Assembly: GCF_913054185.1 (NCBI RefSeq)
Contig: NZ_CAJXIV010000033.1
Location: 1-37,912, forward strand
Direction: 5' to 3'
DNA from: an uncultured Shimia sp.
GTDB taxonomy: Bacteria; Pseudomonadota; Alphaproteobacteria; Rhodobacterales; Rhodobacteraceae
DNA: 37,912 nucleotides
The position numbers and the translations under genes were made by a program. Below the pieces are notes generated by a model. The model did no database searches, was not told where the DNA came from, and saw only the letters and a list, made by a program, of their open reading frames with translations. Shown here piece by piece: positions 1 through 23,576 of the stretch. How positions within the stretch are numbered: the stretch's first letter is position 1; each line of letters begins with the position of its first letter.

Positions 1-674
1 ATGTCCTCACCCACATTGCAGTTCAGCTTGAAGGTCACGCCACCATCTTCCAGCAACTTGTTGCGGCGCATAACCACATCTTTTTCCAGCTTAAATCCCG
101 GAATGCCGTAAGTCAGCAATCCGCCAGCACGGTCATAGCGATCATAGATGGTCACCTGCAGACCTGCACGGCGCAGACGGTCTGCAGCCGCCAAACCACC
201 CGGGCCAGCACCAATGATGCCAACGCTTTCGCTGCGCTCTTGCGCCGGCTTCAACGCCTTGACCCAGCCTTTTTCCCAGGCGGTGTCGGTGATGTATTTC
301 TCCACCGAGCCAATGGTCACAGTGCCGTGGCCGGACTGCTCAATCACACAGTTGCCTTCACACAGGCGATCCTGCGGGCAAATACGGCCACAGATCTCCG
401 GGAAAGTGTTGGTCGCTTGGCTGACGGCATAAGCTTCTTCCAGACGGCCCGTCGCAGTGAGGCGCAGCCAGTCGGGGATATTGTTGTGCAGCGGGCAATG
501 GCTCTGGCAATACGGCACACCACATTGGCTGCAGCGACTCGCCTGCTCTTCCGCCTTCGCCTTGGCGAACTCCGCATAGATTTCGTCGAAATCTTCCTTG
601 CGTACAGTGGCGCCACGCTTTTCCGGCATGTCACGATCCACGGTCACAAATTTCAGCATAGGTTGCTTAGCCAC
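1..674 (-). CDS. gltD: Glutamate synthase small subunit, N-terminal part (cut by window edge)
   Basis: This is the beta subunit of NADPH-dependent glutamate synthase, which feeds electrons from NADPH through FAD and iron-sulfur clusters to the large subunit for glutamate formation from glutamine and 2-oxoglutarate. About 224 N-terminal codons are present and the 3' end lies outside the window. The Cys-rich N-terminal ferredoxin-like domain is clear (CSQCGVPYCQSHCP and, further on, CGRICPQDRLCEGNC). It is followed by the FAD-binding motif GIIGAGPGGLAAADRLR. I chose the GTG at 674 because GGAGG sits 7 bases upstream; an in-frame ATG lies five codons further in. No gltB is visible upstream, so the gene appears to start its own transcript, divergent from uppP. 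Other members of this flavoprotein family share the fold, so the name rests on the combined N-terminal Cys pattern. Confidence 0.92.
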   Translation of the reverse strand, partial: MAKQPMLKFVTVDRDMPEKRGATVRKEDFDEIYAEFAKAKAEEQASRCSQCGVPYCQSHCPLHNNIPDWLRLTATGRLEEAYAVSQATNTFPEICGRICPQDRLCEGNCVIEQSGHGTVTIGSVEKYITDTAWEKGWVKALKPAQERSESVGIIGAGPGGLAAADRLRRAGLQVTIYDRYDRAGGLLTYGIPGFKLEKDVVMRRNKLLEDGGVTFKLNCNVGED

Positions 675-710
675 GTCGCTGCCTCCTGATTAAATCCAGT
701 TTGGAGTGTT

Positions 711-740
711 TAGATAATTTTCATGGGATATAAAAGTCAA
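711..740 (-). promoter_or_regulatory. Probable sigma-70 promoter of gltD
   Basis: Read on the minus strand, TTGACT (735-740) and TATCTA (711-716) are separated by 18 bases. The expected transcription start is about 30 bases before the gltD GTG. This is pattern matching only. Confidence 0.5.
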
Positions 741-809
741 TTGTACTGACCTATATTTCAGTTTTCTGGCAAATGACGCGGTCCAAACACGAAAATTGGA
801 TCGCTTTTT

Positions 810-824
810 GGTCCGAACCGGACC
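810..824. repeat. Perfect inverted repeat GGTCCG-aac-CGGACC between gltD and uppP
   Basis: Six-base arms flank a three-base centre in the 220-base divergent region. It could be an operator or a leader hairpin for uppP. No regulator is implied by the sequence. Confidence 0.4.
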
Positions 825-894
825 TACATTCGGTATTTCCCTTGAATCATTGACCAATTATACGTGAGTCGCTCAAGTAAGGATCCCACCCCAA

Positions 895-1698
895 ATGGCA
901 CTTTTTCACATTTTTCTGGTGGCGATCATCCAAGGCCTCACCGAATTCCTGCCTGTCAGCTCATCTGGACACCTGATTCTCTTATCCAAAGTGACACCGT
1001 TTCCTGACCAAGGCCTCGCGATTGATGTGGCCGCCCACGTCGGCACGTTGGGCGCAGTGATCCTCTATTTTTGGGCCGACGCCAGAATTGCCTTTTGCGG
1101 ATTGCCTCGCATGTTGACCGGCCGCATCGACACCCCCGGCGCACGACTCGCCTTCCTCCTGTCCGCCGCAACCATCCCCGTGATGCTCGCAGGGCTCATC
1201 CTGAAGCTCACAGGAATGGACGAAACATTGCGCTCCGTTGCGGTGATCGGCTGGACCATGATCCTCTTTGGCATCGTGTTGTGGTGGATGGACCAACACG
1301 GTCCCCAAACCAAAACTGAAACGGATTGGTCCTTGAAAGACGCACTGAAGATGGGCCTCTGGCAAGCGCTTGCCCTCATTCCCGGCACATCACGCTCCGG
1401 CATCACCATCACCGGTGCCCGCCAGATCGGCTATGCCCGCAAAGACGCGGCAAAACTGGCTATGTTGATGTCGATCCCGACCATCATCGCCAGCGGTACG
1501 CTGCTCTCACTGGATGTCATCAAAGAAGCCGATATCGATCTGGCAAAAGACGCCGCCATCGCCGCCGTCTTTTCTTTCTTCGCCGCCCTGCTTGCACTGG
1601 CATTCATGATGCGCCTGCTGCGCTCTGTGAGCTTCACACCATATGTGATCTACCGCATCCTTTTGGGCGTTGCCTTGCTCTTCATAGCCTACAGCTGA
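895..1698 (+). CDS. uppP: Undecaprenyl-diphosphatase UppP/BacA
   Basis: This integral inner-membrane phosphatase recycles the undecaprenyl-diphosphate lipid carrier for peptidoglycan and polysaccharide synthesis; overproduction in other bacteria gives bacitracin resistance. The 267-residue length matches the family. Both signature regions are visible: the N-terminal QGLTEFLPVSSSGH, with its glutamate and serine cluster, and the central PGTSRSG loop near residue 163. The rest is a run of hydrophobic helices. The start at 895 places the conserved IIQGLTEF segment at the usual distance from the N terminus. It stands alone, divergent from gltD and convergent with rpsT. Confidence 0.95.
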   Translation: MALFHIFLVAIIQGLTEFLPVSSSGHLILLSKVTPFPDQGLAIDVAAHVGTLGAVILYFWADARIAFCGLPRMLTGRIDTPGARLAFLLSAATIPVMLAGLILKLTGMDETLRSVAVIGWTMILFGIVLWWMDQHGPQTKTETDWSLKDALKMGLWQALALIPGTSRSGITITGARQIGYARKDAAKLAMLMSIPTIIASGTLLSLDVIKEADIDLAKDAAIAAVFSFFAALLALAFMMRLLRSVSFTPYVIYRILLGVALLFIAYS

Positions 1699-1702
1699 AC
1701 AC

Positions 1703-1732
1703 AAAAAACGCCGCTGAAACAGCGACGTTTTT
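1703..1732. terminator. Bidirectional terminator between uppP and rpsT
   Basis: A run of A, a GC-rich hairpin (CGCCGCTG, loop AA, CAGCGACG with a small mismatch) and a run of T lie between the convergent ends of uppP and rpsT. The flanking A and T tracts let it work in both directions. Confidence 0.8.
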
Positions 1733-1755
1733 CCGTATTCTTTGTGAAACGCAGC

Positions 1756-2019
1756 TTACGCCAGCGCTTTCACCCGTGCGGACAGGCGGGACATTTTCCG
1801 CGCTGCAGTGTTCTTGTGGTAGATGCCTTTGCTAACGCCACGCATCAGCTCTGGCTGAGCGGCACGCAGAGCGGCAACAGCTGCGGCTTTGTCACCGGAT
1901 TCGATGGCTTCTTCCGCGGCGCGGATGAACGTACGGATGCGGGAACGACGAGCTTTGTTAACTTCGAGACGACGCTCGTTCTGACGGGCGCGTTTTTTTG
2001 CCTGAGGCGAATTTGCCAT
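1756..2019 (-). CDS. rpsT: 30S ribosomal protein S20
   Basis: This is a small basic ribosomal protein that binds 16S rRNA and helps assemble the 30S subunit. The 87-residue product begins [17 protein letters not shown], the hallmark N terminus of S20, and is rich in Lys, Arg and Ala throughout, as expected for its three-helix bundle. It is monocistronic, has its own promoter-like sequence upstream, and is convergent with uppP, with which it shares a terminator. Confidence 0.97.
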
Positions 2020-2062
2020 GATCTGAGACCTTTTGGTTCGGTACGGTTGTTGCGTGCGACGT

Positions 2063-2088
2063 CCCGAACGGGCTCTCTTCTTCAGAGA
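2063..2088 (-). promoter_or_regulatory. Two small hairpins in the rpsT leader
   Basis: Adjacent perfect inverted repeats CCCG-aa-CGGG (2063-2072) and TCTCT-tcttc-AGAGA (2074-2088) lie between the predicted rpsT promoter and its start codon. They would fold in the leader RNA. S20 is known in other bacteria to be controlled after transcription, but that this leader does so is only an inference. Confidence 0.35.
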
Positions 2089-2133
2089 ATCAGATCAAGC
2101 CTAAGCGGGCTGCACGCGCATGTATGGTGGCGC

Positions 2134-2161
2134 TGTATAGAGATTTTGTAGCGGAACGCAA
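2134..2161 (-). promoter_or_regulatory. Probable rpsT promoter
   Basis: On the minus strand TTGCGT (2156-2161) and TATACA (2134-2139) are spaced by 16 bases. The predicted transcript would carry a leader of about 105 bases containing the two hairpins at 2063-2088. Confidence 0.45.
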
Positions 2162-2191: not shown

Positions 2192-5100
2192 TCACTCACG
2201 CTGGTCTTTCAAAGCACGAAACGCCTCCAACCGCACCTCAAGCGCATCAAAGCGCGCCGCAATATCTGAGCTGACTGTCGCACGTTCCTTGAGAGACAAA
2301 ACAAACATCACCGTCTTCAGAACATCACGCCAGCGCGGATTGTCCGGCAGCGTTTCAATCAACAGGTACTTATCCAGCGTCCGGGTCTGCAACGACGTTT
2401 TGTCGAGGTTCACCCGCCAGATGCCGCTGGTCTCTGCAAAGTCGATCTTGGTCTTACCTGTCGCAGCTCCCCAAATCTGCAACGAGTCCGACATCAATGC
2501 CACAATGGTTTCGCGATAGCTCTCACCGGACGCGCCCTTGTCCGCATCCTCTCCGCCATCCGACATCAGGGATGGCAAAGAGGTATCCACAACATCCCTC
2601 AGAGAATTGACAAACTGTGCCCGCGGCGCGGATGCACGCGTGAACAAAACCGCGCGCCCACCGCCTGCTTCCGGCAGCATAGCGAACAAACTCACTTGAT
2701 GCAGCTGTCCACGCAACATCACCTCGATGTGGATTGGCTCGTCCTCAACCTCCGTTTGCTCCAAAGGTGTCACAACTTTTTGCGGCAAAACATCTTTCAG
2801 GCGACTCTTTTTCACGGTCACGGGCTTATCAAGCACCTGCTGGGCCGCCTCATTAACATAAGTGACCGCCCCGCGCGCGTTGATACAAATCAGACCATCC
2901 TCCAAGGTATCAAGCAGTTGCGCCATACGCCTTTGCGACAAGCGCAAAGCGTCTTCGACCTGTATGCGGCGCTCAATCTCTTCTTTCAGCTCACGGTTTT
3001 CTGCCGCCTGGCTGCGGGCGCGACTGGCCTCCAAAAGTGTGCGGATACGGCTGAGAAGCTCGTCTTTTGCAAAAGGCTTCACCACATAGTCATTGGCCCC
3101 GGCTTCAAATCCGGCCAGCATGTCACTAGTACGCCCGCGCGCCGTTAGCAGAATGATCGGCAACTCATGTAATTGATGACGCCGCCGCAAGTCACGGGCC
3201 ACATCCAATCCGCTCAAGCCAGTCATCATCACGTCCAGCACAATCAGGTCTGGTCGCTCCTTCGCGACACTGCGCAAAGCTTCTGAGCCGTTATGGGCCG
3301 TGGCAACCCGATATCCCTGCGGCCCAAGCAAATTCTGCAGCACCTGAAGGTTGATCGGTTCATCATCCACCGCAAGGATCAACGGCGACCCTTCCGGAAC
3401 AACAGTGCCGGTTGCTCCAACTTCAGCCTGAAGCGCTGGCGGTTGAGAAAACTCAGGTGGCAGCAGATCCTCCGGCAACGCCAAAGGTGCCTGATCGGTT
3501 ACAGGCAGTAAAACTCGAAACTCTGCCCCTTCCCCAACCGTGCTGGACACCTCGATCCGTCCAGACATCATATCCGCAAGATGCCGCGCGATGGTCAGCC
3601 CCAACCCAGTACCTGTCGCCTGCCCCGACCCTTCCGGCGTCAGTTGCTCTAAAGGATGAAAAATTCGTTCCATGCTGTCTGCTGCGATACCCGGCCCATG
3701 GTCTCGGATACTCACAGCCATCTGATCCGCATCCATAACCTGCGCAGTGATCTCGACAACACTGCCGCCGCCATATTTCACCGCATTGGACAACAGATTG
3801 AACAATATCTGTTCAAACCGCACTGGGTCCGCAACGACGGCTGGCAAACCATCTTGTAGGTCAACTTGGAAAGTGGCCGGATCCACATGAAAGGTTGGCT
3901 GCAGCAGATGCACCACGTTGTGCACCGAGTGTGAGACATCAACAGGCTGCATGTCCAAGCGCATGCGACCTTCGCGAATGCGATAAATGTCTAAAAGGTC
4001 GTCCACCAACCGTGACAGTCGGCGCGCGCTGAAGGTGATCAGGCGCAGCTGACTGGCCTGAGCCGGCAACATATCTCCCATAGCGCCGCCCTCAAGGGTT
4101 TCCAAAATGCCGATGATCCCATTCAATGGCGTGCGTAATTCATGTGAGGTATTGGCCAGAAAGCGGTCCTTGATCCGATCCGCCTCTTCCAATTCAGAGT
4201 TCTTTTCACCGATCTCGCGAAGTTTTTCTTGCAGCTCCGCATTTTTGTCCCGGATCAGGTCCAACTGGTCACGCAAGGCACGTCGCATCTGGTTCACAGC
4301 ACGGGACAAGCGTGCATATTCCACCGGGTGATCGTATTCCGGCAGGGCATCATTGAGACTGCCGGTGGCCACGGCACTCGCAGCTTCCGACATCTTGCGC
4401 ACGGGCCTTGTGATGGCATTTGAGAATATGAAAGACAAAAGCGCCAAACCCGCAGCTGCCGCCACCCCAATCAGAATCAACGTGTCGCGCAATCGATGGC
4501 TGTTCTGAAAAGCCATCTCCCTGCTGGTCTCCGCGATCACGGTCCACTGTGGGAACGGCTCTTCCAATTCTCGCCATGCAGAAAGTGTAGGTATCCCTGT
4601 CAGCCCTGCGTCCAAAACTGCTACACCCTCATTACTTTTCATCGGCTTGGGTATCCGAACCTGCTCGCCAAGGGTCAGACCACCGCTGGACGCGATCATA
4701 AGCCCCCCCGATGAAATAACCGACAGCGATGCATCCCCTTCATTCACAAGGCTTTGCAGGCTGTTGGGCGGAATCCGAAGGATCATCGCACCTTTGTGAC
4801 TGCCATGAAGTCGCACAGGCACCGCCAGATACGCCGCCAGCTCGCCGGAAATCGCATCCACTGCATAGTCCTGAAACACAGGATCGAATCCATCGCTAGA
4901 TGTCACCTTATGAAACGCCTGCCCAAGACCAATAACACGTTGGTTCAGCGGCCTGCCGAGGTAGGCGTCTTTATAAACAGAATACACAACCTGCCCGTGG
5001 CGATCCGCCAAATAGAGATTGTCAAACTCTGCCTCTTGCAAGAAGTCGAGAAAATCCTGGTGAAACCGGCGGTGCGTGTTGGAGTACTCAAGCGCCTCGC

Positions 5101-5482
5101 GTAACAGTTGGTCTTCTGTCTCACTTTCGTCGCGTTGCCCTTGAGCGCTGTCCACCCCAAAAATATTTCGTAGCTTGGCGCCGGCCTCTTCCGGCGTGCC
5201 CTCAATTTGCCGGAGCGCATGGCTAAAACCGTAAAACTCGCCCACCGAGTAGCGCACGTTTGCGGACTGCGCGAGGCTCTCTGCTTGCCGGGCCGCATAG
5301 GTCATATACTGCGAAATTTCGCTCGCCTTGGCGTCACGTACAAAAGCAACCTTCTCAAAAGTCTCTGTGGTGATGATCTGGTTGACCAGCCGATAAAACA
5401 CCACGCCGCCGAGTGCCAACGGCAGCACCGAAGCAAGGAGGAAGGTGACAAGCAGGCGCGCGCGAATTCCCTGAAAAGGCAC
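2192..5482 (-). CDS. chiS: ChiS-like hybrid sensor kinase with C-terminal DNA-binding domain
   Basis: This inner-membrane hybrid kinase probably senses chitin oligosaccharides through the adjacent binding protein and controls the divergent ABC operon. I start it at the GTG at 5482 (GGAGA just upstream), giving 1096 residues; an in-frame TTG at 5545 would add 21. Counting from the GTG: TM1 (about 8-30), a periplasmic domain to about 330, TM2 (about 335-353), a HAMP-like region, and HisKA with TSHELRTPLNG (His447). The HATPase has FNLLSNAVKYGGG, DHGPGIA and GTGLGL. A receiver domain follows with LIVLDVMM (Asp750) and Lys802, then a coiled coil and a PAS-like segment. The C-terminal domain (about 988-1070) has TGKTKIDFAETSGIW and TRTLDKYL, which I recognise as the ChiS-family cryptic helix-turn-helix. 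ChiS in Vibrio sits beside cbp in the same way. The ChiS name is from recall and synteny, not an alignment. Confidence 0.82.
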   Translation of the reverse strand: MPFQGIRARLLVTFLLASVLPLALGGVVFYRLVNQIITTETFEKVAFVRDAKASEISQYMTYAARQAESLAQSANVRYSVGEFYGFSHALRQIEGTPEEAGAKLRNIFGVDSAQGQRDESETEDQLLREALEYSNTHRRFHQDFLDFLQEAEFDNLYLADRHGQVVYSVYKDAYLGRPLNQRVIGLGQAFHKVTSSDGFDPVFQDYAVDAISGELAAYLAVPVRLHGSHKGAMILRIPPNSLQSLVNEGDASLSVISSGGLMIASSGGLTLGEQVRIPKPMKSNEGVAVLDAGLTGIPTLSAWRELEEPFPQWTVIAETSREMAFQNSHRLRDTLILIGVAAAAGLALLSFIFSNAITRPVRKMSEAASAVATGSLNDALPEYDHPVEYARLSRAVNQMRRALRDQLDLIRDKNAELQEKLREIGEKNSELEEADRIKDRFLANTSHELRTPLNGIIGILETLEGGAMGDMLPAQASQLRLITFSARRLSRLVDDLLDIYRIREGRMRLDMQPVDVSHSVHNVVHLLQPTFHVDPATFQVDLQDGLPAVVADPVRFEQILFNLLSNAVKYGGGSVVEITAQVMDADQMAVSIRDHGPGIAADSMERIFHPLEQLTPEGSGQATGTGLGLTIARHLADMMSGRIEVSSTVGEGAEFRVLLPVTDQAPLALPEDLLPPEFSQPPALQAEVGATGTVVPEGSPLILAVDDEPINLQVLQNLLGPQGYRVATAHNGSEALRSVAKERPDLIVLDVMMTGLSGLDVARDLRRRHQLHELPIILLTARGRTSDMLAGFEAGANDYVVKPFAKDELLSRIRTLLEASRARSQAAENRELKEEIERRIQVEDALRLSQRRMAQLLDTLEDGLICINARGAVTYVNEAAQQVLDKPVTVKKSRLKDVLPQKVVTPLEQTEVEDEPIHIEVMLRGQLHQVSLFAMLPEAGGGRAVLFTRASAPRAQFVNSLRDVVDTSLPSLMSDGGEDADKGASGESYRETIVALMSDSLQIWGAATGKTKIDFAETSGIWRVNLDKTSLQTRTLDKYLLIETLPDNPRWRDVLKTVMFVLSLKERATVSSDIAARFDALEVRLEAFRALKDQRE

Positions 5483-5560
5483 AGTATCTCCAAAGTTTCT
5501 GGTTTTGCTGCGGGTGATCCTGCGACCTGCCCAAGAGCGAAACAAGTATCCAAATCGAAA

Positions 5561-5584
5561 ATCCCAAATGTTTTTCTTTGGGAT
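5561..5584. repeat. Perfect inverted repeat ATCCCAAA-n8-TTTGGGAT
   Basis: Eight-base perfect arms are separated by eight bases, just upstream of chiS. This is a candidate operator for a dimeric regulator such as ChiS itself; that role is an inference. Confidence 0.5.
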
Positions 5585-5596
5585 AACATCTCCAAC

Positions 5597-5615
5597 AACC
5601 TAAATAAGTTAGGTT
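5597..5615. repeat. Perfect inverted repeat AACCTAA-n5-TTAGGTT followed by T run
   Basis: Seven-base arms flank a five-base centre, followed by TTTT on the plus strand. It is AT-rich, so it would be a weak terminator; an operator is also possible. Confidence 0.4.
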
Positions 5616-5743
5616 TTTAAAGAGCTTCTCTGCTCACTCCTCCGTGTTTTGACGAAATTGCCGATTTTTCTGGTGCCATTTCCAAGGCGGCCGAGATTTC
5701 AATGCACCACATCCGAGGCGTTTGGTGAGGAGACCAATTGCAA

Positions 5744-5761
5744 CCATGATGTGTATCATGG
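5744..5761. repeat. Perfect inverted repeat CCATGAT-gtgt-ATCATGG
   Basis: Seven-base arms with a four-base centre lie about 70 bases before the binding-protein start. The placement suits an activator site upstream of, or a repressor site within, the operon promoter. Confidence 0.5.
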
Positions 5762-5798
5762 CCCCCAAAAATCGGGGAGATCCGGCGGATTGATATAA

Positions 5799-5814
5799 GG
5801 CGGGACAACCCGCC
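5799..5814 (+). promoter_or_regulatory. Leader hairpin GGCGGG-acaa-CCCGCC
   Basis: A perfect six-base GC stem with a four-base loop ends about 7 bases before the ribosome binding site of the binding-protein gene. It may protect the mRNA 5' end or tune translation. Confidence 0.45.
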
Positions 5815-5832
5815 TACACAGGGAGAGACAAA

Positions 5833-7488
5833 ATGAATTTCAAGACAACCGCCGGGCTTCTGGCATCGGTTGCGCTTTGGTCCACTGCCGCTCAGGCTGA
5901 AGAAACAGTACTCACAGCGCTGCCGGATCAGGTCACCGCATGGGTGGAAAACTTCAACCCGTTCAACCAGACCACCGCGGCGCCCTCCGTGTTGCATTTC
6001 ATGTACGAGCCGCTGATCATTTTTAATGCCATAGATGGTGGCAAGCCGATCTACCGTTTGGCCACCGCGTTTGACTACGCAGATGACCTCAGCGCCATCA
6101 CCGTGACCCTGCGCGATGGAGTGCAATGGTCCGATGGCGAGGCCTTCACTGCTGATGACGTTGTCAAATCTTTTGATCTTGCCCTGAGCAACTCAGCGCT
6201 GGACAGCGTGGGCATGGCACAAATGTTGTCGGGCGTCGACAAAGTTGACGACAAGACCGTACGCTTCAACCTAGCCACGCCTTCCAGTCAGGCGATGTAT
6301 CAAATTGTGCGCGTGCCAATTGTGCCTGAGCACATCTGGAGTGGCGTCGACGATCCTGTGACCTTCACTAACCCGAACCCAGTTGGCTCCGGTCCCTTGA
6401 CCGAAATCCGCCGCTTCACGCCGCAGGAATATACCCAGTGTCGCAATGCCAACTATTGGGATGCAGACAGCCTGAAAGTGGACTGCATGCGCTTCCCGCA
6501 GATCGCCAACAATGATCAGGCGCTGGCCGCAGCAGCCAATGGCGAACTTGATTGGATGGGCTCCTTCCTTCCAGACATCGACAACACGTTTGTCGCCAAA
6601 GATCCGGAGCACCACAGCTATTGGCTGCCGGGCGGCTCTCTTGTGGCCTTCTACATGAACTTCGAAGCACCCGAAGCCGGTGACAAAGCTGCCTTCAACA
6701 ACCAAAATTTCCGCCGCGCCGTGTCCATGGCGTTTGACCGCGAAGCCATGGTTGAAATCGCTGGCTACGGTTACCCGACCATCAACCAATACCCCTCTGG
6801 CCTTGGCCGCGCCTTCCACGCCTGGAATAACGCTGAGGTGGATGAGAAATTTGGCGCCTTCACCCAATACGACATCGAAGCCGCAAAGGCGCTTCTGGCC
6901 GAAGCCGGCTTTAAAGACATCGACGGAGACGGTTTTGTCGAAACGCCGGATGGCGAGCAGATCGATCTTGAAGTCATCGTACCAAACGGTTGGACCGACT
7001 GGGTCAACAGCTGCCAAATCGCAGTTGAAGGCTTAAACGCAGCTGGCATCAAAGCCAATGTGTCGACACCAGAAGCTGCGATCTGGACCGAGAAGCTCAT
7101 CACCGGTGAGTACGACATGGCCATCAACTCGGTCCGCGTTGGCGCCACGCCGTTCAACCAGTATCTCGACTCACTGCACGAGGACAACCAAGCCAAATCA
7201 CGCTTTGCCGCCTCACGGTATTACAACGCGGAACTAAGTGAGCTTCTGGATGCTTTCACGCAGACCAGCGACACTGAAAAACAGATGGCGATCATGGCTG
7301 ACGTACAGACCATCGTGGGAGAGGATATGCCACTGGCTTACGTCTTCAACAATCCACGCTGGTATCAGTACAACACCAAGCGTTTCACCGGTTTCTTCAA
7401 CTCGGAGAACCCAGTGGCCAACCCGGTGGTCCACAAGACCAACCCCGCCCGTCTGGTGCACCTGCTGAACCTGCGTCCGGTAGAATAA
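5833..7488 (+). CDS. cbp: Chitin-oligosaccharide-binding protein of an ABC importer (SBP_bac_5 family)
   Basis: This periplasmic solute-binding protein delivers ligand to the permease pair downstream and probably also signals to the ChiS-like kinase. The 551-residue product opens with a signal peptide (MNFKTTAGLL to STAAQAEE). It belongs to the large peptide/oligosaccharide-binding family. Several stretches match what I recall of Vibrio CBP: TFTNPNPVGSGPLT, VDCMRFPQIANNDQ, LDWMGSFLPDID, PNGWTDW and YQYNTKRFTGFF. The sugar-stacking tryptophan region PNGWTDW and the late NNPRWYQYN segment are both retained. It heads a tight operon with two permeases, two ATPases and then GH20, the same order as in the Vibrio chitin-oligosaccharide operon. 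A peptide or cellobiose ligand is the main alternative, but the CBP resemblance is strong. Confidence 0.85.
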   Translation: MNFKTTAGLLASVALWSTAAQAEETVLTALPDQVTAWVENFNPFNQTTAAPSVLHFMYEPLIIFNAIDGGKPIYRLATAFDYADDLSAITVTLRDGVQWSDGEAFTADDVVKSFDLALSNSALDSVGMAQMLSGVDKVDDKTVRFNLATPSSQAMYQIVRVPIVPEHIWSGVDDPVTFTNPNPVGSGPLTEIRRFTPQEYTQCRNANYWDADSLKVDCMRFPQIANNDQALAAAANGELDWMGSFLPDIDNTFVAKDPEHHSYWLPGGSLVAFYMNFEAPEAGDKAAFNNQNFRRAVSMAFDREAMVEIAGYGYPTINQYPSGLGRAFHAWNNAEVDEKFGAFTQYDIEAAKALLAEAGFKDIDGDGFVETPDGEQIDLEVIVPNGWTDWVNSCQIAVEGLNAAGIKANVSTPEAAIWTEKLITGEYDMAINSVRVGATPFNQYLDSLHEDNQAKSRFAASRYYNAELSELLDAFTQTSDTEKQMAIMADVQTIVGEDMPLAYVFNNPRWYQYNTKRFTGFFNSENPVANPVVHKTNPARLVHLLNLRPVE

Positions 7489-7570
7489 CCTCCCTACCTT
7501 CGGGGCTGCTCACCAGATGAGTGGCCCCGCTTTTGGCCTTACTTCCTCTCTCGACAGATGGTTTGACCTG

Positions 7571-8548
7571 ATGCGTTTTCTATTGAAGCGGCTCGGCTTC
7601 TACTGCGTGGCTTTTCTTGTAGCTGCGACCTTCAACTTCATGATCCCTCGCATGTTGCCTGGCAACCCAGCCGACATCATGCTGGCCAACTCCGGCGGCA
7701 TGATTGCACCCGAGGCCCGCGATGCGCTGATGGCAACCTTCGGCTTTATCGACGCTCCTTTGCACGAACAGTATTTTGCCTATCTCGGCTCGATCTTCAC
7801 CTGGGACTTTGGTCTGTCGATCAAGTTTTACCCGATGCCGGTGGCAGATGTGTTGATTCAGGCCCTGCCGTGGACTCTGTTCCTGACCGGATCTGCGCTG
7901 TTGATTTCTTTCTCAATCGGCACGCTTTTGGGCATTCTGGCCGCCTGGCGGCGCGGACAGTTGACCGACGTGATCGCCTCGCCAACCGCTCTGGCCCTGC
8001 AATCCGTGCCTGCGGTGGTTGTGGCGCTGTGTGGTCTCTATTTTCTCGCGGTGCAAAACCGCTTTTTCCCAACCTCTTACGCCTTCAATCCAAGCCTGGA
8101 TCCGGCCTGGAGCTGGGAGTTCATCTCGTCGGTTCTCTACCATGGCTTCCTGCCGGTCGTGACGCTGAGCGTTGTCCTGATTGGGGGCTACCTGATCACC
8201 ATGCGCAACAACATGATTGGCCAACTTGGCGAAGACTATCTCGCCATGGCCGAGGCCAAGGGCTTGAGCGACGCCCGCGTACGCTACGCTTATGCCGCCC
8301 GCAACGCGCTTCTGCCCTCCGTGACCGCCCTCGCGCTCAGTTTTGGCGCCCTGTTTGGCGGATCACTCATCACCGAAGTGGTGTTCAACTATCCGGGTGT
8401 GGGCAACCTTTTGTACCTTGGCATTGTCGGACGTGATTTCCCGCTGATCCAGGGTCAGTTGCTCATCATGACACTTGCCATGCTGCTCGCGAACCTCGCG
8501 GTAGATCTGGCCTATGTCTTCCTTGATCCCCGATTGAAGAGGGCCTGA
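7571..8548 (+). CDS. ABC importer permease, DppB type
   Basis: First membrane subunit of the oligosaccharide importer. From the ATG at 7571 the protein is 325 residues, beginning MRFLLKRLGFYCVAF, which matches the usual start of this permease type. An upstream ATG at 7517 would add 18 atypical residues. The early PRMLPGNPADIM motif after the first helix, six or so hydrophobic segments, and the cytoplasmic EAA loop near LAMAEAKGLSDARVRYAYAAR are visible. The stop overlaps the next start (TGATG), suggesting translational coupling. Similar subunits import dipeptides and nickel, so the substrate is inferred from the neighbouring binding protein and GH20. Confidence 0.88.
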   Translation: MRFLLKRLGFYCVAFLVAATFNFMIPRMLPGNPADIMLANSGGMIAPEARDALMATFGFIDAPLHEQYFAYLGSIFTWDFGLSIKFYPMPVADVLIQALPWTLFLTGSALLISFSIGTLLGILAAWRRGQLTDVIASPTALALQSVPAVVVALCGLYFLAVQNRFFPTSYAFNPSLDPAWSWEFISSVLYHGFLPVVTLSVVLIGGYLITMRNNMIGQLGEDYLAMAEAKGLSDARVRYAYAARNALLPSVTALALSFGALFGGSLITEVVFNYPGVGNLLYLGIVGRDFPLIQGQLLIMTLAMLLANLAVDLAYVFLDPRLKRA

Positions 8549-9456
8549 TGTCTGATCTTCTCCGTACTTTCCTGCGCAACCGCAAAGCCGCCATCGGCCT
8601 GACCATCGTGCTGATCTACGTGGCGATTGCGATCTTTGCGCCCCTCATTGCGCCGTTTGATCCTGTGGCCCGCATTGGTCGCCCACATCAAGCGCCGTCG
8701 GCCGAACATTGGCTCGGCACCACCCGCATGGGCCGCGATGTGTTTAGCCAATTGGTCTGGGGCACCCGCACATCCCTCATGGTGGGCATTGTTGCCGGAC
8801 TGATCGTCACCGCCATTGGCACGGCCATCGGCATCACCGCGGCCTATTTTGGTGGCTGGGTCGATGACATCCTGAACTTCCTCACCAACGTCGTGCTGGT
8901 CCTGCCGCAACTGCCGCTGCTGCTGGTGCTGGCGGCCTTCCTTGGCCAAGTGGGTCCGTGGGCCATTGCCCTGATCATCGGCCTCACCTCCTGGGCCTGG
9001 GGGGCCAGGGTGACTCGTTCTCAAGCCATGTCCCTCAAAACCCGCGACTTCATCCAGGCTTCCGCAATGATTGGAGAGCCAAACTGGCGCATGATCCTTG
9101 TGGAGATGCTGCCGAACCTCCTGTCGATCATCGGCTTCAACTTCATTGGCTCCGTAATCTTCACTATCATCACCGAAGCCACACTGGAATTTCTTGGCCT
9201 TGGCAGCCCCTTGGCCACCTCTTGGGGCACCATGCTTTATAACGCCCAAACCGCCTCCGCGATCATGGTTGGCGCCTGGTGGGAAATTCTCGCTCCTTGC
9301 GCCGCAATTGTCCTAATTGGCGTTGGTCTTTCCCTTATGAATTTCGGCGTCGACGAAATTGCAAATCCGCGCATGCGCACACTTGGCAACGTGGCCAAAG
9401 CTCTGCGCATCGAAAAACGTCTGACACGTCAGCGCATGCAGGAGGCCAACCAATGA
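8548..9456 (+). CDS. ABC importer permease, DppC type
   Basis: Second membrane subunit of the importer, 302 residues. It shows an N-terminal helix after FLRNRKAAIG, then the family motif region HWLGTTRMGRDVFSQLVWGT near residues 52-71. The C-terminal inner-membrane core carries an EAA-type loop (around TRDFIQASAMIGEPNWRMI). The ATG overlaps the stop of the previous gene by one base, and its own stop overlaps the first ATPase start (ATGA), so the five transporter genes form one transcript. Its pairing with the DppB-type partner and the chitin-type binding protein is from gene order. Confidence 0.88.
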   Translation: MSDLLRTFLRNRKAAIGLTIVLIYVAIAIFAPLIAPFDPVARIGRPHQAPSAEHWLGTTRMGRDVFSQLVWGTRTSLMVGIVAGLIVTAIGTAIGITAAYFGGWVDDILNFLTNVVLVLPQLPLLLVLAAFLGQVGPWAIALIIGLTSWAWGARVTRSQAMSLKTRDFIQASAMIGEPNWRMILVEMLPNLLSIIGFNFIGSVIFTIITEATLEFLGLGSPLATSWGTMLYNAQTASAIMVGAWWEILAPCAAIVLIGVGLSLMNFGVDEIANPRMRTLGNVAKALRIEKRLTRQRMQEANQ

Positions 9457-10265
9457 GTGCCCTTCTTTCCGTCAAAGACCTGCGTATTGACTACCTCACC
9501 GCCAGGGAGCCCTTCACCGCAGTGCGCGACATCTCTTTCGAGATCCAGCCCAATGAAATCCTTGGCCTCGCCGGGGAGTCGGGCTGTGGCAAAAGCACGG
9601 TGGCTTACGCGTTGATGCGCCTGCACAAACCGCCAGCGCTGGTGCGCAACGGTCATATCCTCTTTGAAGGCCACGATGTGCTCTCTTTTGCCGACAAAGA
9701 GCTGCGCGCTTGGCGCTGGTCTGAGGTCTCCATGGTGTTTCAAAGCGCGATGAACTCCCTCAGCGCGGTGATGACCATCTTCCGACAGTTCTACGACATG
9801 CTGCGCGCCCATGGCACAGTGACCAAAGCGCAGGCGCAAGAACGCACCGCAGAAATGCTTGAGATGGTCGGCATCCCAGTTGACCGTATACACGCCCACC
9901 CGCATCAACTCTCCGGTGGCATGCGTCAACGAGTGGCGCTCGCGCTGGCCCTCACGCTCAAACCCAAGCTGATCATCATGGACGAGCCGACCACCGCGCT
10001 CGACGTGGTGGTGCAGCGAGAAATCCTGCAAGAGGTTCTGCGCCTGAAAGATGAACTCGGCTTCTCCGTGTTGTTCATCACCCATGACATTGCCCTAATG
10101 GCCCAGATTTCGGACCGCATCGGCATCATGCGAGAAGGCAAGATTGTCGAAATAGGCACCGCGTCGCAAATCGTAACTTCACCGGAACACGACTACACCC
10201 GCAGCCTGTGGGACGCGATGCCGCTCCTCGCCCAGCGCCCGGAAGGAATGGCCCATGCCGTCTGA
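9453..10265 (+). CDS. ABC importer ATPase, DppD type
   Basis: First nucleotide-binding subunit, 270 residues from the ATG at 9453, which overlaps the preceding stop and follows GGAGG. Walker A (GESGCGKST), signature (LSGGMRQRV), Walker B (LIIMDEPT) and the switch histidine (FITHD) are all intact. It is shorter at the C terminus than many dipeptide ATPases. Together with the next gene it powers import through the two permeases in the inner membrane. Confidence 0.9.
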   Translation: MSALLSVKDLRIDYLTAREPFTAVRDISFEIQPNEILGLAGESGCGKSTVAYALMRLHKPPALVRNGHILFEGHDVLSFADKELRAWRWSEVSMVFQSAMNSLSAVMTIFRQFYDMLRAHGTVTKAQAQERTAEMLEMVGIPVDRIHAHPHQLSGGMRQRVALALALTLKPKLIIMDEPTTALDVVVQREILQEVLRLKDELGFSVLFITHDIALMAQISDRIGIMREGKIVEIGTASQIVTSPEHDYTRSLWDAMPLLAQRPEGMAHAV

Positions 10266-11184
10266 CACCCCGATCCTCAGCCTCGACAACCTGAGCAAGA
10301 CCTTCACCGTACGCCCGGCCTTTGGCCGCGCCTCGGTCGTCGACGCGCTGCGCAATGTGTCGCTAGATCTCCTGCCAGGCCGCGCCTTGGTGCTTGTGGG
10401 TGAAAGTGGCTCCGGCAAAAGCACGGTTGGCAAGATGATCGTTGGCATTCACGCGCCCACGTCGGGTCGGATCCTGTTTGACGGCCAAGACATCGCCAGC
10501 ATGACCTCCAAAGCTGAGCAATTGCGCTACCGTCAAGCGGTGCAAATGGTGTTTCAGGACCCGTTTTCCGCCCTCAACCCAGCCCATACCATTCGACACC
10601 ACCTGCTGCGTGCTTTGGCCCTGCATCAGCCCGAGGCCGACCCGGAAACCGCGCTGCGGTCCATCTTGGAAGACGTGGAGCTGGACCCAATCTCGACTCC
10701 AAACAAATTCCCACATGAGCTGTCCGGCGGACAGCGCCAGCGCGTGAACTTCGCGCGGGCTTTGGCAGTGAAGGCGCGCCTGATTGTGGCAGACGAACCC
10801 ACGTCCATGTTGGATGTGTCGATCCGAAAATCTATTCTGGGTTTAATGCAGCGCCTCAAATCCGAACACAGCCTCTCAATTCTCTACATCACGCACGACA
10901 TTGCCACCGCTGAATACTTGGCCGAAGACACGGCTGTGATGTTCCGCGGCCAAGTGGTTGAAACCGGCCCAACAGAGCAAGTTGTTGGCAATCCGCAACA
11001 CGGCTACACCAAGCTTTTACGCACCGCTGTTCCTGATCCGAAGTTGCGGCTCACAGGCAGCGACGCCGGGTTTGCTGCCAAGGCCAAACTGGTACGTGAG
11101 GCCAGCGCCCAGCCAGTAAGCACACTACGCGAAATTGGCCTCGGTCATTTCATCGCTGAACACATAGAGTTGGTACATGCGTGA
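10255..11184 (+). CDS. ABC importer ATPase, DppF type
   Basis: Second nucleotide-binding subunit, 309 residues. It has Walker A (GESGSGKST), the Q-loop (MVFQDPFSALNP), signature (LSGGQRQRV), Walker B (LIVADEPT) and the switch histidine (YITHD). It starts 11 bases inside the end of the previous ATPase gene, consistent with coupled translation. The extended C-terminal tail after residue 250 is usual for the oligopeptide/oligosaccharide ATPases. A 128-base gap then separates it from the GH20 gene, with no terminator visible, so GH20 is probably cotranscribed. Confidence 0.9.
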   Translation: MPSDTPILSLDNLSKTFTVRPAFGRASVVDALRNVSLDLLPGRALVLVGESGSGKSTVGKMIVGIHAPTSGRILFDGQDIASMTSKAEQLRYRQAVQMVFQDPFSALNPAHTIRHHLLRALALHQPEADPETALRSILEDVELDPISTPNKFPHELSGGQRQRVNFARALAVKARLIVADEPTSMLDVSIRKSILGLMQRLKSEHSLSILYITHDIATAEYLAEDTAVMFRGQVVETGPTEQVVGNPQHGYTKLLRTAVPDPKLRLTGSDAGFAAKAKLVREASAQPVSTLREIGLGHFIAEHIELVHA

Positions 11185-11312
11185 CATGCTGATGCCGTTT
11201 TGCAGGTTGCGCTGCCAATGTGATTCACCGCTCCGAACGTGGGCGTTTACCACCGCCCATGCGTGACCCCTTATGACACTGTCTTAGTCATCCAACCAAC
11301 AGGACGATACCA

Positions 11313-13196
11313 ATGCACTTCCACCTCGACAGCCTTTGGCACTCAGAAGACGGCGCCATGGAGTTTGCCCTAACCAACTGCAGCGATGTTGCCGTGACCA
11401 AACCCGGCCTGGTTTACACCACCCTTGTGCGCACCCTGCGCCCGTCGCGCTGCACCGGCGCAACCCTAGTCCGCCGACAGGCCAATTTCCACGAATACGC
11501 CTCAGAAGACGGTTTTGTGCTGAACCCGGGTGAAACCTGGCGCTTCACCGAGCAGAGCCTCACTCGTCCAGCCCAGCACTCCAACGAAGGCCCAAAATCA
11601 GCTGGTGTTGTGCTTGAGGACGGCACGCTGGTGCCTGTTTTTGCCAGCGAATTGCAGGCGCCTGCTGCCCTTGGCGAGACCAAGCCAACGGAAAGCTCGG
11701 CTTTGTCTTGCGGAGTGTTGCCACAACCCAACCAAATTCAGGTGAGTCATTGGTGCGCCAACGCCCCCGTGCATTACGCCGTGGCACAGCGCGATCTGGC
11801 AACCATTCAAGCCGTGTCCCATGTCGCCGACCTCACCCGCCGGCTCTATCCTTTGGCGCCGGTGCCTTTTGTCCTGACAGCAAAAGACGACGTGCCGCAG
11901 CTACAGATCGCAACCGACGCCTCCCTTGGGGATGAAGCTTACCGGATCACTTGGACGGATGGCCAACCGAACCTGCAGCACAGCACAAATCAGGGCCTGC
12001 TCTATGGCCTCATCACGCTGGCCCAGACCCTGACCAACGCCTATCAGGACGCAGCCAACTACGGCGTGCCTTTCACCGGTGAAATCTCCGATGCCCCACG
12101 CCACGAATGGCGCGGCGCGCATCTGGATGTCTCCCGCCAAATCTACCCGATGGAGCAAGTGCTGCGCTATGTGGACATCATGGCCTGGCACAAGATGAAC
12201 CGCTTCCATTGGCACCTGACCGATGACGAAGGCTGGCGGCTGGAAATCAAAGCCTACCCGCAACTCACCGAGGTCGCCGCCTATACCGGCATGGACCTTC
12301 CGGTCCTGCCACAGCTTGGTGCCGATCCCGCCGGTCAGGGTGGCTTTTACACCCAGGACAACGCGCGTCAGGTGGTGACCCATGCCGCCAAACTTGGGGT
12401 TGAGGTGATGCCAGAAATTGATGTGCCCGGCCATTGCGCTTGCGTTCTGGGCGCGCTGCCGGAGCTGGTCGATTCTGAGGAACCGGAAAGCTACTGGTCC
12501 GTACAAGGTTACGCCAACAACGCGCTCAACCCGGCGATTGAGGGCTCTTACACCTTTGCCACCAAAGTGCTCGAGGAAGTGCTCGACATCTTCCCGTTTG
12601 AGGTTGTGCACATCGGTGGCGACGAAGTCGCCGAAGACGCCTGGATGCAGTCGCCCAAGGCCCAAGCCATGATGCGCGAAACTGGCCTCAAGGGTACGCA
12701 CGAACTTCAGGCCTATTTCCTACGCCAAATTCAGGATTTCCTCGCCGACCGTGGTCGCAAACTGGGTGGTTGGGAAGAGGTCGCCCATGGCGGCGGTCTG
12801 GACCCGGAAAAGAGTCTTCTGTTTGCTTGGACAACTGTAGAAAAAACCGCCGATCTGGCCAATGACGGCTATGATGTGGTCAGCACCCCGGGGCAAGCCT
12901 ACTACCTAGATATGGCGCTGTCCGATGCGTGGTACGCACCGGGTGCAAGCTGGGCCGGGTTCACCCCGCTGGACAAAACCTATGCCTTTGAAGCGGACAA
13001 CGGTGACGCCGCACTTCAGGAACGTCTCAAAGGGGTTCAAGGTTGCATGTGGAGCGAACACCTCACCACGTTGGAGCGTCGCAACCACATGATTTATCCA
13101 CGCCTGAACGCCATTGCCGAGGCGGGATGGAGCGAGGCTAAGAATAAATCATTTGAGCGCTTCGCCGCACTGGCGGAGCTGATGCCGCGCCTCTGA
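11313..13196 (+). CDS. Cytoplasmic GH20 beta-N-acetylhexosaminidase
   Basis: This enzyme releases GlcNAc from the non-reducing end of chitobiose and other beta-linked N-acetylhexosaminides by substrate-assisted catalysis. The 627-residue protein has no signal peptide, so it should act on sugars already imported by the ABC system. An N-terminal domain of about 250 residues precedes the GH20 barrel. The barrel shows RGAHLDVSRQIYPM, HWHLTDDEGWR, MPEIDVPGHCA and the catalytic HIGGDEVAEDAW pair (Asp437-Glu438). The C-terminal MWSEHLTTLE segment is also typical. AGGA precedes the ATG at 11313. In Vibrio the equivalent operon also contains a cytoplasmic GH20. No GlcNAc kinase or chitobiose phosphorylase follows here. 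Confidence 0.92.
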   Translation: MHFHLDSLWHSEDGAMEFALTNCSDVAVTKPGLVYTTLVRTLRPSRCTGATLVRRQANFHEYASEDGFVLNPGETWRFTEQSLTRPAQHSNEGPKSAGVVLEDGTLVPVFASELQAPAALGETKPTESSALSCGVLPQPNQIQVSHWCANAPVHYAVAQRDLATIQAVSHVADLTRRLYPLAPVPFVLTAKDDVPQLQIATDASLGDEAYRITWTDGQPNLQHSTNQGLLYGLITLAQTLTNAYQDAANYGVPFTGEISDAPRHEWRGAHLDVSRQIYPMEQVLRYVDIMAWHKMNRFHWHLTDDEGWRLEIKAYPQLTEVAAYTGMDLPVLPQLGADPAGQGGFYTQDNARQVVTHAAKLGVEVMPEIDVPGHCACVLGALPELVDSEEPESYWSVQGYANNALNPAIEGSYTFATKVLEEVLDIFPFEVVHIGGDEVAEDAWMQSPKAQAMMRETGLKGTHELQAYFLRQIQDFLADRGRKLGGWEEVAHGGGLDPEKSLLFAWTTVEKTADLANDGYDVVSTPGQAYYLDMALSDAWYAPGASWAGFTPLDKTYAFEADNGDAALQERLKGVQGCMWSEHLTTLERRNHMIYPRLNAIAEAGWSEAKNKSFERFAALAELMPRL

Positions 13197-13249: not shown

Positions 13250-14185
13250 TTAGTCGCCCAGCGGCTGCGGACCAGTTCGGCCATGATACGCCGTCAGCGA
13301 GGCACGAATACGACGCAAGTTTTCCGTGGTCTCCGACGCCATGCCCTGCGCCACCGCCATTGCCAGCGCATCCACCAAAATCATATGCACATACCGCGAG
13401 GCTGTGGGTTTGTGGATGTCCCGATCTTCCGGCAGATCCACCACAATCGGAATGCTACAAGCCTCGGCCAGACGCGTGCCCGGCTTGGTTATACAAATGG
13501 TGGTCGCGCCATATCCGCCAGCAATTTCCGCCGCGCCGACAATGGCATCTGCCTCGCCGCTGGCGGAAATCAAAAACAGCACATCGCCCGTTTTCAACGT
13601 CGCCGCCCGCATCTGCAGAATATAGCTGTCACTGGTGGACACTGACGGGATGCCAAGACGGAAAAACCGGTTGGCCGCTTCTTGGGACACATTGGAGGAT
13701 CCCCCACCAATCCCGGCGAACAACACATGCTGGGTGTCTAGCAGAGCGGCCTTTGCCTGCTCCATCACATCCGGCTCAATCTGATGGCGCATCGTATTTG
13801 TGGCGGCAAACAGCGCCGCGAGAATTTGATCAACCGCCGTGTCCCCCGCTGCCGAGGCTGGCAACGGATCAGCGGAGAGATATTGTCGGCTGACCGCAAG
13901 GTTTTGCGCCAACCGAAGCTTAAACTCCCGGAAGCCATCACAGCCCAACGTCCGACAAAACCGGATCACAGTGGGCGTGCTGACCTCACAGTGTTTGGCC
14001 AACTCCGCGATGTTCATCGAGCTGACATCTTCAAGTTGTGCTTTGACGTAATTGGCCACTTTCTGCTCCTGCGTCGCCAGCTTGCCGTCATGGTGATGCA
14101 GCGCAGAGATCACATCTCCGGCCCCAGCACGCCCCTTTTTCGGAGGCAGGTTGTCCAGGTTCGATTCGGTGGCGTTATCGGTCAC
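13250..14185 (-). CDS. RpiR/MurR-family transcriptional regulator (HTH + SIS)
   Basis: This is a sugar-phosphate-type regulator of 311 residues. The N-terminal HTH_6 domain is clear (MNIAELAKHCEVSTPTVIRF). It is followed by a SIS domain (FAGIGGGSSNVSQEAANRFF and LISASGEADAIVGAAEIA) that in this family binds phosphosugars or related metabolites. I use the GTG at 14185, with GAGG 7 bases upstream. It is divergent from the TRAP operon and only convergent with GH20, so the TRAP-MlrC-RidA genes are its likelier targets. Repeated TATGTAC half-sites in the shared intergenic region are candidate operators. A role in controlling the chitin operon cannot be excluded. Confidence 0.88.
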   Translation of the reverse strand: MTDNATESNLDNLPPKKGRAGAGDVISALHHHDGKLATQEQKVANYVKAQLEDVSSMNIAELAKHCEVSTPTVIRFCRTLGCDGFREFKLRLAQNLAVSRQYLSADPLPASAAGDTAVDQILAALFAATNTMRHQIEPDVMEQAKAALLDTQHVLFAGIGGGSSNVSQEAANRFFRLGIPSVSTSDSYILQMRAATLKTGDVLFLISASGEADAIVGAAEIAGGYGATTICITKPGTRLAEACSIPIVVDLPEDRDIHKPTASRYVHMILVDALAMAVAQGMASETTENLRRIRASLTAYHGRTGPQPLGD

Positions 14186-14284: not shown

Positions 14285-14354
14285 TATGTACCTCAGTAAC
14301 AAATTTTGCTTGATTGCGTGCCAGATTCGAAAATATACGTACCTAAAGTACATA
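14285..14354. promoter_or_regulatory. Candidate RpiR operators: repeated TATGTAC half-sites
   Basis: One TATGTACCT lies at 14285-14293. An imperfect palindrome TACGTAC-ctaaa-GTACATA lies at 14336-14354, about 51 bases on, or roughly five helical turns. Both are in the 192-base divergent region between the RpiR gene and the TRAP operon. Binding by RpiR is inferred from position. Confidence 0.45.
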
Positions 14355-14377
14355 AATCGTTCCAGGGGAGGGGGCCG

Positions 14378-14899
14378 ATGCGTCACTGGGCAGAAACTGC
14401 CAGCGCGAAGATCAACACAGTGGTTGAGGCCATTGTTGCAGCCTTGATGCTGGCCTTGGTGCTAGATGTCTGGCTCGGAGTGGTCGACCGTTACTTCTTT
14501 CACTGGCAACTGCCGTGGCCCGAAGTGCTGGCCCGCTACCTGATGATCTGGGCCGCAATGTTGGCGGTGTCTTCCGGCATTGCCCGGCGCGATCACATTG
14601 GCCTGACGGCGTTCATCATGGTTCTGCCATATCAGGTCCGCCGCGCCGTTTTGATCCTGATGGACGTCATTGCTCTGGCGCTGTTCCTCTATGTTGCATG
14701 GTACGGCATCGCCTTTGCCCAATCCGGTGCACCACGTCAGGCGATGATTTTTGGGGTTAGCCTCGCGCCGTTTTATGCCGCGATCCCCGTCGCAGCGATC
14801 CTGTCATCCATTCAGCTTGCCCTCGTTCTCTTGCGCGACTTGGGCACGCATATCGACAATCCGCCCTTCTCTGATCACCTCGAGGAGGAAACCTCATGA
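14378..14899 (+). CDS. TRAP transporter small permease (DctQ type)
   Basis: Small membrane subunit of a tripartite ATP-independent periplasmic transporter, which uses the sodium or proton gradient to import organic acids. The protein is 173 residues from the ATG at 14378, preceded by the strong site GGGGAGGGGG; an upstream in-frame ATG at 14306 lacks such support. Four hydrophobic segments are visible, and the Trp-rich loop PWPEVLARYLMIWAAMLAV is characteristic. Its stop overlaps the start of the large permease gene. It is the first gene of an operon that runs to RidA. Confidence 0.9.
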   Translation: MRHWAETASAKINTVVEAIVAALMLALVLDVWLGVVDRYFFHWQLPWPEVLARYLMIWAAMLAVSSGIARRDHIGLTAFIMVLPYQVRRAVLILMDVIALALFLYVAWYGIAFAQSGAPRQAMIFGVSLAPFYAAIPVAAILSSIQLALVLLRDLGTHIDNPPFSDHLEEETS

Positions 14900-16179: not shown

Positions 16180-16211
16180 CACCAAATAACTAAACCCAAC
16201 GGGAGGAACCC

Positions 16212-17249: not shown

Positions 17250-17289
17250 ACCACTCCCACCCCGCTCCTCCAAATGTGGGTGGGGACTT

Positions 17290-17317
17290 GGGCAAGCATC
17301 CTGTGTGATGCTTGCCC
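17290..17317 (+). terminator. Intercistronic hairpin after the TRAP binding-protein gene
   Basis: A perfect 11-base stem (GGGCAAGCATC, loop ctgtgt, GATGCTTGCCC) sits between the binding-protein gene and the metallopeptidase gene. There is no T run. It is therefore more likely an mRNA-stabilising or attenuating hairpin that raises binding-protein expression over the enzymes than a full stop. Confidence 0.65.
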
Positions 17318-17343
17318 GACTTGATTAAACAAAGGACCAAACC

Positions 17344-22669: not shown

Positions 22670-22679
22670 CACCCACGCT

Positions 22680-23504: not shown

Positions 23505-23576
23505 TAATAAGCGACCCAAACCGGACGACATTGCGAACATTGAAGCGGCCCTCCAGATACAGGTGGTCATCGCGGT

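Follow-up and report, generated by a model that had tools for sequence, protein, structure and literature searches.

The window analysed here, a stretch of 37,912 nucleotides from an uncultured Shimia sp. (contig NZ_CAJXIV010000033.1), carries divergent chiS and cbp genes, coding for a membrane hybrid kinase and a chitooligosaccharide-binding protein (CBP), with cbp followed by genes for two permeases, two ATPases and a glycoside hydrolase of family GH20. We conclude, with a probability of roughly 80%, that this is an alphaproteobacterial ChiS-CBP unit working by a path from CBP through the sensor domain of ChiS to DNA, with the kinase as a tuner. The conclusion draws on gene order, family membership, conserved ligand, DNA-contact and phosphorylation residues, parallel trees of CBP and ChiS, a conserved box between the two genes, and relatives of ChiS that naturally lack the kinase and stand beside CBP. 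What makes ChiS puzzling is that a protein with the look of a hybrid kinase acts as a DNA-binding regulator; with the kinase-less relatives it becomes possible to test directly whether CBP and the sensor domain suffice for signalling. An earlier note on this DNA had described a sensor-importer-hydrolase unit with a kinase of about 1100 residues; the genes and their order are as it described, the kinase being 1117 amino acids (aa) long, and its guess of a Roseobacter-group host was right, Shimia being a genus of that group.

In Vibrio cholerae, CBP is described as repressing ChiS until a chitin oligosaccharide arrives (PMC10208484). For the window we infer a path of the following form. Without ligand, periplasmic CBP would touch the dCache-type domain of ChiS and hold ChiS inactive. 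A chito-oligosaccharide bound by CBP would alter this contact, and the signal would cross the membrane to the C-terminal DNA-binding domain. ChiS, still in the membrane, would bind the box at 5646-5683 and switch on the cbp-permease-ATPase-GH20 operon. CBP would also supply the ATP-binding cassette (ABC) importer, a cytoplasmic GH20 would release N-acetylglucosamine (GlcNAc), and the kinase and receiver would tune DNA binding from outside the signal path.

The ChiS of the window has dCache, HAMP, HisKA, HATPase, receiver and PAS domains according to Pfam, a C-terminal ChiS DNA-binding domain, and two transmembrane segments (residues 31-49 and 356-374; residue numbers are counted from the TTG start). 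It is identical to a Vibrio-type ChiS at 362 of 1126 alignment columns (32%), which cover window residues 24-1103; the compared genome counts as Vibrio-type on the strength of its CBP, which reaches 1179 bits with the VhCBP chain 5yqw. The nearest solved structures to the predicted model of the sensor domain include dCache-type sensors such as DctB and Tlp3. The family motif FYGF lies at residues 104-107 of this domain, and residues G106, Y154, L179 and W334 are identical in all 75 aligned rows. At the C terminus, the protein matches the crystallised DNA-binding domain of V. cholerae ChiS (7kpo) with 84 bits (E 7e-23). Five basic residues of V. cholerae ChiS, R1068, R1074, K1078, R1090 and R1092, are described as required for DNA binding (PMC8092284). 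Four of the five are identical in the window (R1055, K1059, R1071 and R1073), and the fifth is K1049 in place of R1068, a lysine found at that position in 22 of 69 full-length ChiS rows.

The cbp product, whose N terminus looks by eye like a signal peptide, belongs to Pfam family SBP_bac_5. Its best solved relatives are Vibrio chitooligosaccharide-binding proteins (1zty, 5yqw and others) with about 550 bits, and the next chain scores 199. Membership of both proteins in the families named by the earlier note was thus borne out, and the alignments and trees it had called for placed neither the C-terminal domain of the kinase nor the binding protein in an unrelated family. We mapped the 11 ligand residues of VhCBP, as given in PMC8449061 and PMC10667598, onto 95 CBP rows. 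By this alignment, the window CBP keeps seven: W387 (W363 in VhCBP), D389 (D365), R457 (R436), F458 (F437), N227 (N204), S244 (S221) and F245 (F222). N204, F222, W363, D365 and R436 are present in all 95 rows. R436 and F437 are linked to recognition of the N-acetyl group, and D365 and W363 are described as strong contributors (PMC8449061). The best solved relative of the window GH20 is Nag2 (6ezr; 348 bits). No hydrophobic start or signal peptide is visible in it by eye, and it is therefore probably cytoplasmic.

Niveispirillum and some other alphaproteobacteria have, beside CBP, a ChiS without HAMP, kinase or receiver domains, which consists of a membrane anchor, the same sensor domain, a linker and the DNA-binding domain. 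In our class sample CBP was found in 9 of 385 genomes, the window's own included, and all eight CBP-bearing genomes outside Shimia also have one protein with a ChiS DNA-binding domain. The open frame is 498-632 aa in seven of the eight and full length in Aestuariispira; in one genome (G829) it lies on a different contig from CBP. Pfam gave at most weak dCache or CHASE4 matches for seven distinct short ChiS proteins, and no HAMP, kinase or receiver. The G, YGF, Y, L and W positions of the sensor domain are kept in all six short forms aligned, and the DNA-binding domains of the two compared with 7kpo score 94 and 100 bits. A short linker joins the second membrane segment to the DNA-binding domain; in one of the seven (L097), only the first membrane segment is above the cut-off. 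The predicted structure of a short ChiS is poor, with a predicted local distance difference test score (pLDDT) of 62. In the taxonomic order of genome G853, a short-ChiS match occurs in 14 of 82 genomes, all in two of 13 genera. Thirteen of these proteins are complete and free of HAMP, kinase and receiver, and one is cut; a GH3 or CBP gene is next door in 13 of the 14, and a TonB receptor gene in all 14. Among the kinase-less loci named individually, L096 to L100 have a GH3 gene and a TonB receptor gene beside chiS too. Kinase genes were not seen beside the short chiS genes, apart from a distant frame of hybrid type in L163 and a receiver frame in L171, 7-9 kb away.

The existence of kinase-less ChiS beside CBP in nature indicates that CBP-ChiS signalling probably does not need the kinase, and suggests that the kinase part of ChiS is optional. 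A classical phosphorelay, in which the kinase signals by phosphorylation and CBP is merely a transport protein, would fit the strong conservation of the phosphorylation residues: the phospho-histidine (H468 in the window) is present in 70 of the 71 full-length rows, the other having a gap there, and the receiver aspartate (D771) in 71 of 71, both positions being read off the alignment with the Vibrio-type ChiS. We consider this explanation improbable because some ChiS proteins encoded beside CBP have no kinase yet share the sensor and DNA-binding domains, and because the trees of CBP and ChiS match. In a 2020 PNAS study of ChiS, phosphorylation reportedly reduces DNA binding instead of raising it. 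The kinase-less relatives agree with a path from CBP through the sensor to DNA that involves no phosphotransfer. We propose the same path for the window, with the kinase as a modulator.

Full-length ChiS stands on both sides of the short forms in both trees, so loss of the kinase is the simpler reading. The ChiS tree as drawn needs two changes for the short forms. One loss may suffice all the same: a single short-form clade is not rejected (p-AU 0.216), and the branch of L163 in that tree is very long (2.47). More broadly, we lean towards viewing ChiS-CBP as an old one-component sugar sensor of proteobacteria, whose transcription factor is tethered to the membrane and controlled by a solute-binding protein. 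The kinase-receiver part would then be an optional brake, deleted whole in the Niveispirillum group and relatives, and perhaps separately in another alphaproteobacterial lineage, with CBP, sensor, DNA-binding domain and in some cases the box retained. Such an arrangement would resemble membrane-tethered one-component regulators such as ToxR and TfoS, which also have a sensor outside, a DNA-binding domain inside and no phosphotransfer domain. The sensor and DNA-binding domains of ToxR and TfoS differ from those of ChiS, and kinase-less ChiS, unlike them, is paired with a binding protein. The helix-sheet-helix DNA-binding domain of the ChiS family is described in diverse proteobacterial proteins of several architectures (PMC8092284). 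The main text of that paper does not contain the word alphaproteobacteria and its architecture section gives no CBP neighbours; its Data Set S1 may list kinase-less forms. Among the papers listed in a literature survey of titles and the openings of abstracts, none reports ChiS-CBP in alphaproteobacteria or a kinase-less ChiS.

The unit is widely spread among alphaproteobacteria. A CBP scan of a named collection confirmed 567 loci, and the best 80, whose counts are not frequencies, comprise 59 with full-length ChiS (one of which, L127, reaches its contig end), one with a cut ChiS, four with kinase-less ChiS and 16 with none. Genera with full-length units include Shimia, Tritonibacter, Thalassovita, Parasedimentitalea, Nitratireductor, Pannonibacter, Pelagibacterium, Devosia, Maritalea and Cucumibacter. 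Further full-length units occur in Rhizobium leucaenae, Aestuariispira, Motilimonas, Osedax symbionts, three Vibrio records, Aeromonas and others. Of the 59 full-length loci, 50 have chiS divergent from cbp, as in the window, and in nine Aeromonas loci both genes point the same way with chiS first. The earlier note had taken the divergent layout to be the known Vibrio arrangement; this proved wrong, since all seven Vibrio-type loci with both genes (L037-L040, L042, L044 and L045) have the two on one strand, chiS lying upstream. The distribution thus shows chitin-sugar sensing of the ChiS-CBP type in a broad range of alphaproteobacteria, and some of these may live on sugars that other organisms release. 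In samples of whole genomes, the ChiS DNA-binding domain was found in 15 of 398 from the phylum, the window's own included.

Compared with the window, the chb operon of V. cholerae and V. campbellii has CBP, two permeases, two ATPases and GH20 in the same order, Vibrio ChiS has the same domains including the DNA-binding domain, and the ligand residues of CBP are largely shared. A Vibrio-type operon (L054) continues after the ATPases with genes for a GH9, a BadF-type sugar kinase, a GH20, a GH94 and a phosphomannomutase-type protein. At a threshold of E 1e-15, the first 25 kb of the window contain a relative of the GH20 and of none of the other four. Aeromonas loci (L165, L176, L184 and others) share with the window CBP and transporter, the box, and a histidine at the position of VhCBP W513; ChiS is present in 10 of 15 and GH20 in 11. 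They differ in the same-strand order and in having a GH9 gene (13 of 15) and a BadF-type kinase gene (12 of 15). In three Vibrio records (L139, L140 and L168) the ChiS-CBP unit is divergent, of the alpha type, and accompanied by a GH3 gene; these records lie near Motilimonas in both trees. Two Motilimonas loci encode an additional CBP, very unlike the first, on the opposite strand (L159, 15614-17296; L161, 15642-17357). One locus labelled Mycobacterium sp. KBS0706 (L164) groups with Inquilinus CBPs and is probably from a mislabelled or mixed genome.

The trees were quick ones with SH-aLRT support only, carry a warning about meeting long branches, and were rooted at the midpoint for drawing; duplicates of named loci, the contig-cut L187 and partial CBPs were omitted. 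In the CBP tree (95 rows), the window falls in a Shimia set of five (support 99), within a Rhodobacteraceae set of 13 (100) that lies inside an alphaproteobacterial set of 41 (98), and the Vibrio-type rows stand apart. The ChiS tree, built from the sensor and DNA-binding domains (75 rows), recovers largely the same clades. Distances in the two trees correlate over 63 loci (r 0.86), and none of 999 permutations was as high. A recent horizontal transfer of the unit from Vibrio to Shimia could be thought to explain why CBP is present in only 5 of 25 Shimia genomes, each with kinase, transporter, GH20 and an RpiR regulator, and why the segment carrying it is missing at the same junction in a relative. 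It could also account for the ChiS DNA-binding domain occurring in 1 of 295 genomes of the family Rhodobacteraceae, the window's own, although this sample holds about one genome per genus, misses for example Tritonibacter members that carry the unit, and so understates its distribution. The position of the window CBP far from the Vibrio-type rows and the differing gene order and content make such a transfer very improbable, and both trees reject it. Of the two origins that the earlier note had offered, the older and wider distribution is therefore favoured by the CBP and ChiS trees; recent transfer from Vibrio is not, the window CBP being 44-45% identical to two Vibrio-type CBPs and 93-95% identical to other Shimia CBPs.

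Movement of the unit on a smaller scale, within Shimia, is likely given its presence in 5 of 25 genomes and the absence of the whole segment from this junction in one relative. In that relative (G686, locus L075), segment 2162-32065 is absent: a match to window positions 1-2161 is followed by 45 bp and then by a match to 32066-33051. The gene uppP and the gene at 32375 are adjacent in 16 of 20 Shimia genomes without CBP; in 15 of the 16 the second gene faces uppP, and only L075 has the orientation of the window. Another relative (G697) lacks the 20.3-32.1 kb part. This pattern fits gain and loss alike. The draft assembly has 176 contigs, which might raise the suspicion that the window is contaminated or misassembled. 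Contigs between 227 kb and 964 kb long from four other Shimia genomes show an identical gene order, which leaves this explanation with next to no probability, and we rejected it.

The interval between chiS and cbp is poorly alignable among 13 Rhodobacteraceae, apart mainly from one block that is conserved in all 13, the putative ChiS box. A matrix built from these 13 sites alone was run over the whole loci of other lineages. Its top match fell in the regulator or operon region in 18 of 38 other divergent loci with full-length ChiS (2.3 expected by length), in 11 of 17 same-strand loci (1.1 expected; 9 of 10 in Aeromonas and 2 of 7 in Vibrio-type loci) and in 5 of 7 kinase-less loci (0.6 expected), in all of which the rows are related to each other and are not independent trials. 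In the kinase-less locus L100, the core TTTTGACGA lies 16 bases outside the set region. Two Vibrio-type loci (L039 and L040) have two box-like sites 30 bp apart, the second with one mismatch; two ChiS sites are described in Pchb of V. cholerae (PMC8092284). An earlier matrix from gammaproteobacterial sites matched in 33 of 52 full-length loci (one being a training row), 2 of 7 short-ChiS loci and 1 of 10 loci without ChiS, but is partly circular because its sites were chosen by a pattern that the Rhodobacteraceae box had suggested; the Rhodobacteraceae-only matrix is cleaner. A loose form of the pattern is weak in G+C-rich DNA, with 53 exact matches in 163,630 region bases versus 157 in 1,593,721 others. 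The shared box offers a handle on ChiS targets outside Vibrio.

Several observations weigh against our reading. The box is not the top match in 20 of the 38 divergent full-ChiS loci or in 5 of the 7 Vibrio-type loci. Only two of the five kinase-less matches (L170 and L099) show the TTTTGACGA core, and the other three are weak. The matrix also matched in the region of 6 of 16 loci without ChiS (1.3 expected), five from Aeromonas and one on a cut Maritalea contig. Among the best 80 loci, eight of the 16 that are ChiS-free extend 8 kb or more to each side, which means that CBP can function with no ChiS in the vicinity. The window CBP differs at four of the 11 ligand residues (E10 to Q33, N409 to S433, F411 to R435 and W513 to H534), and the W513A change is reported to cost VhCBP 4.2 kcal/mol (PMC8449061). 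Histidine at this position is common outside the Vibrio-type rows and stands in every Aeromonas row. Finally, we found no GH18 in the window's genome, which is 93.85% complete, so that the chitin source would have to be other organisms or an unfound enzyme.

The last two points bear on whether the same machinery might serve another sugar. Because F411 of site 2 is an arginine there, the CBP of the Shimia/Tritonibacter group could have shifted to a different oligosaccharide that contains GlcNAc, perhaps an acidic one, for example a fragment of peptidoglycan or of a glycosaminoglycan. The changes at F411, N409 and W513 are shared by all ten rows of the group, the window included, and sialic acid and NagA genes lie on the same segment as the unit, which, like the missing GH18, would suit such a shift. 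We nevertheless think it unlikely, since R436, F437, D365 and W363 are all kept and the GH20 of the operon suits beta-GlcNAc ends.

In a genome-wide search of five Shimia genomes, the one exact match to the box in the window's genome is the chiS-cbp box itself, and its four one-mismatch matches all lie inside long reading frames, spelling FDE or FDD. In the other Shimia genomes, exact or near boxes stand close upstream of a gene for a GFO/IDH/MocA oxidoreductase (L208) and of a conserved frame that is about 400 aa long and matches no Pfam family (L223 and L230). It is possible that these genes are further ChiS targets. A scan of promoters and terminators gave nothing useful. The coordinates of all features are collected in the table.

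Features of the ChiS-CBP unit and its surroundings in the window, with the basis of each assignment
Feature	Position	Strand	Basis or remark
ChiS-family DNA-binding domain (about residues 1005-1103)	2237-2533	-	match to 7kpo
Periplasmic sensor domain (about residues 50-355)	4481-5398	-	dCache Pfam, 49.3 bits; predicted structure, pLDDT 90.3
chiS	2192-5545	-	1117-aa membrane hybrid kinase; start provisional (TTG from open reading frame (ORF) list)
Conserved putative ChiS box	5646-5683	+	core TTTTGACGAAATTGCCGA at 5647-5664, between divergent genes
cbp, chitooligosaccharide-binding protein family	5833-7488	+	551 aa; ORF list and structure-chain matches
ABC permease 1, DppB type	7517-8548	+	ORF list and domain matches
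ABC permease 2, DppC type	8548-9456	+	ORF list and domain matches
ABC ATPase 1, DppD type	9453-10265	+	start chosen inside longer frame 9279-10265
ABC ATPase 2, DppF type	10255-11184	+	ORF list and domain matches
GH20 beta-N-acetylhexosaminidase	11313-13196	+	domain match
RpiR/HexR-like regulator with SIS domain	13250-14185	-	domain matches
NagA, GlcNAc-6-phosphate deacetylase	23577-24830	-	possible next step for released GlcNAc
ROK-family sugar kinase, neighbouring sialic acid cluster	25527-26441	-	possible GlcNAc or N-acetylmannosamine kinase

The RpiR/HexR-like regulator gene adjoins the unit in all five unit-bearing Shimia genomes and is also next to chiS in five Tritonibacter-group loci (L118-L122). 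Directly after it in the window, positions 14306-19862 hold a tripartite ATP-independent periplasmic (TRAP) transporter (DctQ, DctM and DctP), an MlrC-like protein and an Ala_racemase_N/D-ser_dehydrat protein. A sialic acid cluster at 21509-31835, on the same segment as the unit, comprises NanM, NanR, NagA, the ROK kinase, NanE, TRAP permeases (DctM and DctQ) and NanA, and is missing in G697. NagA may possibly provide the next step for the released GlcNAc, and the ROK-family kinase possibly acts on GlcNAc or N-acetylmannosamine. The window's genome has a second GH20 gene (L002, C98:871-1902), whose product is about 38% identical to the window GH20, and a GH20 of about 37% identity is encoded beside uppP in the Shimia relative G691 (L074).

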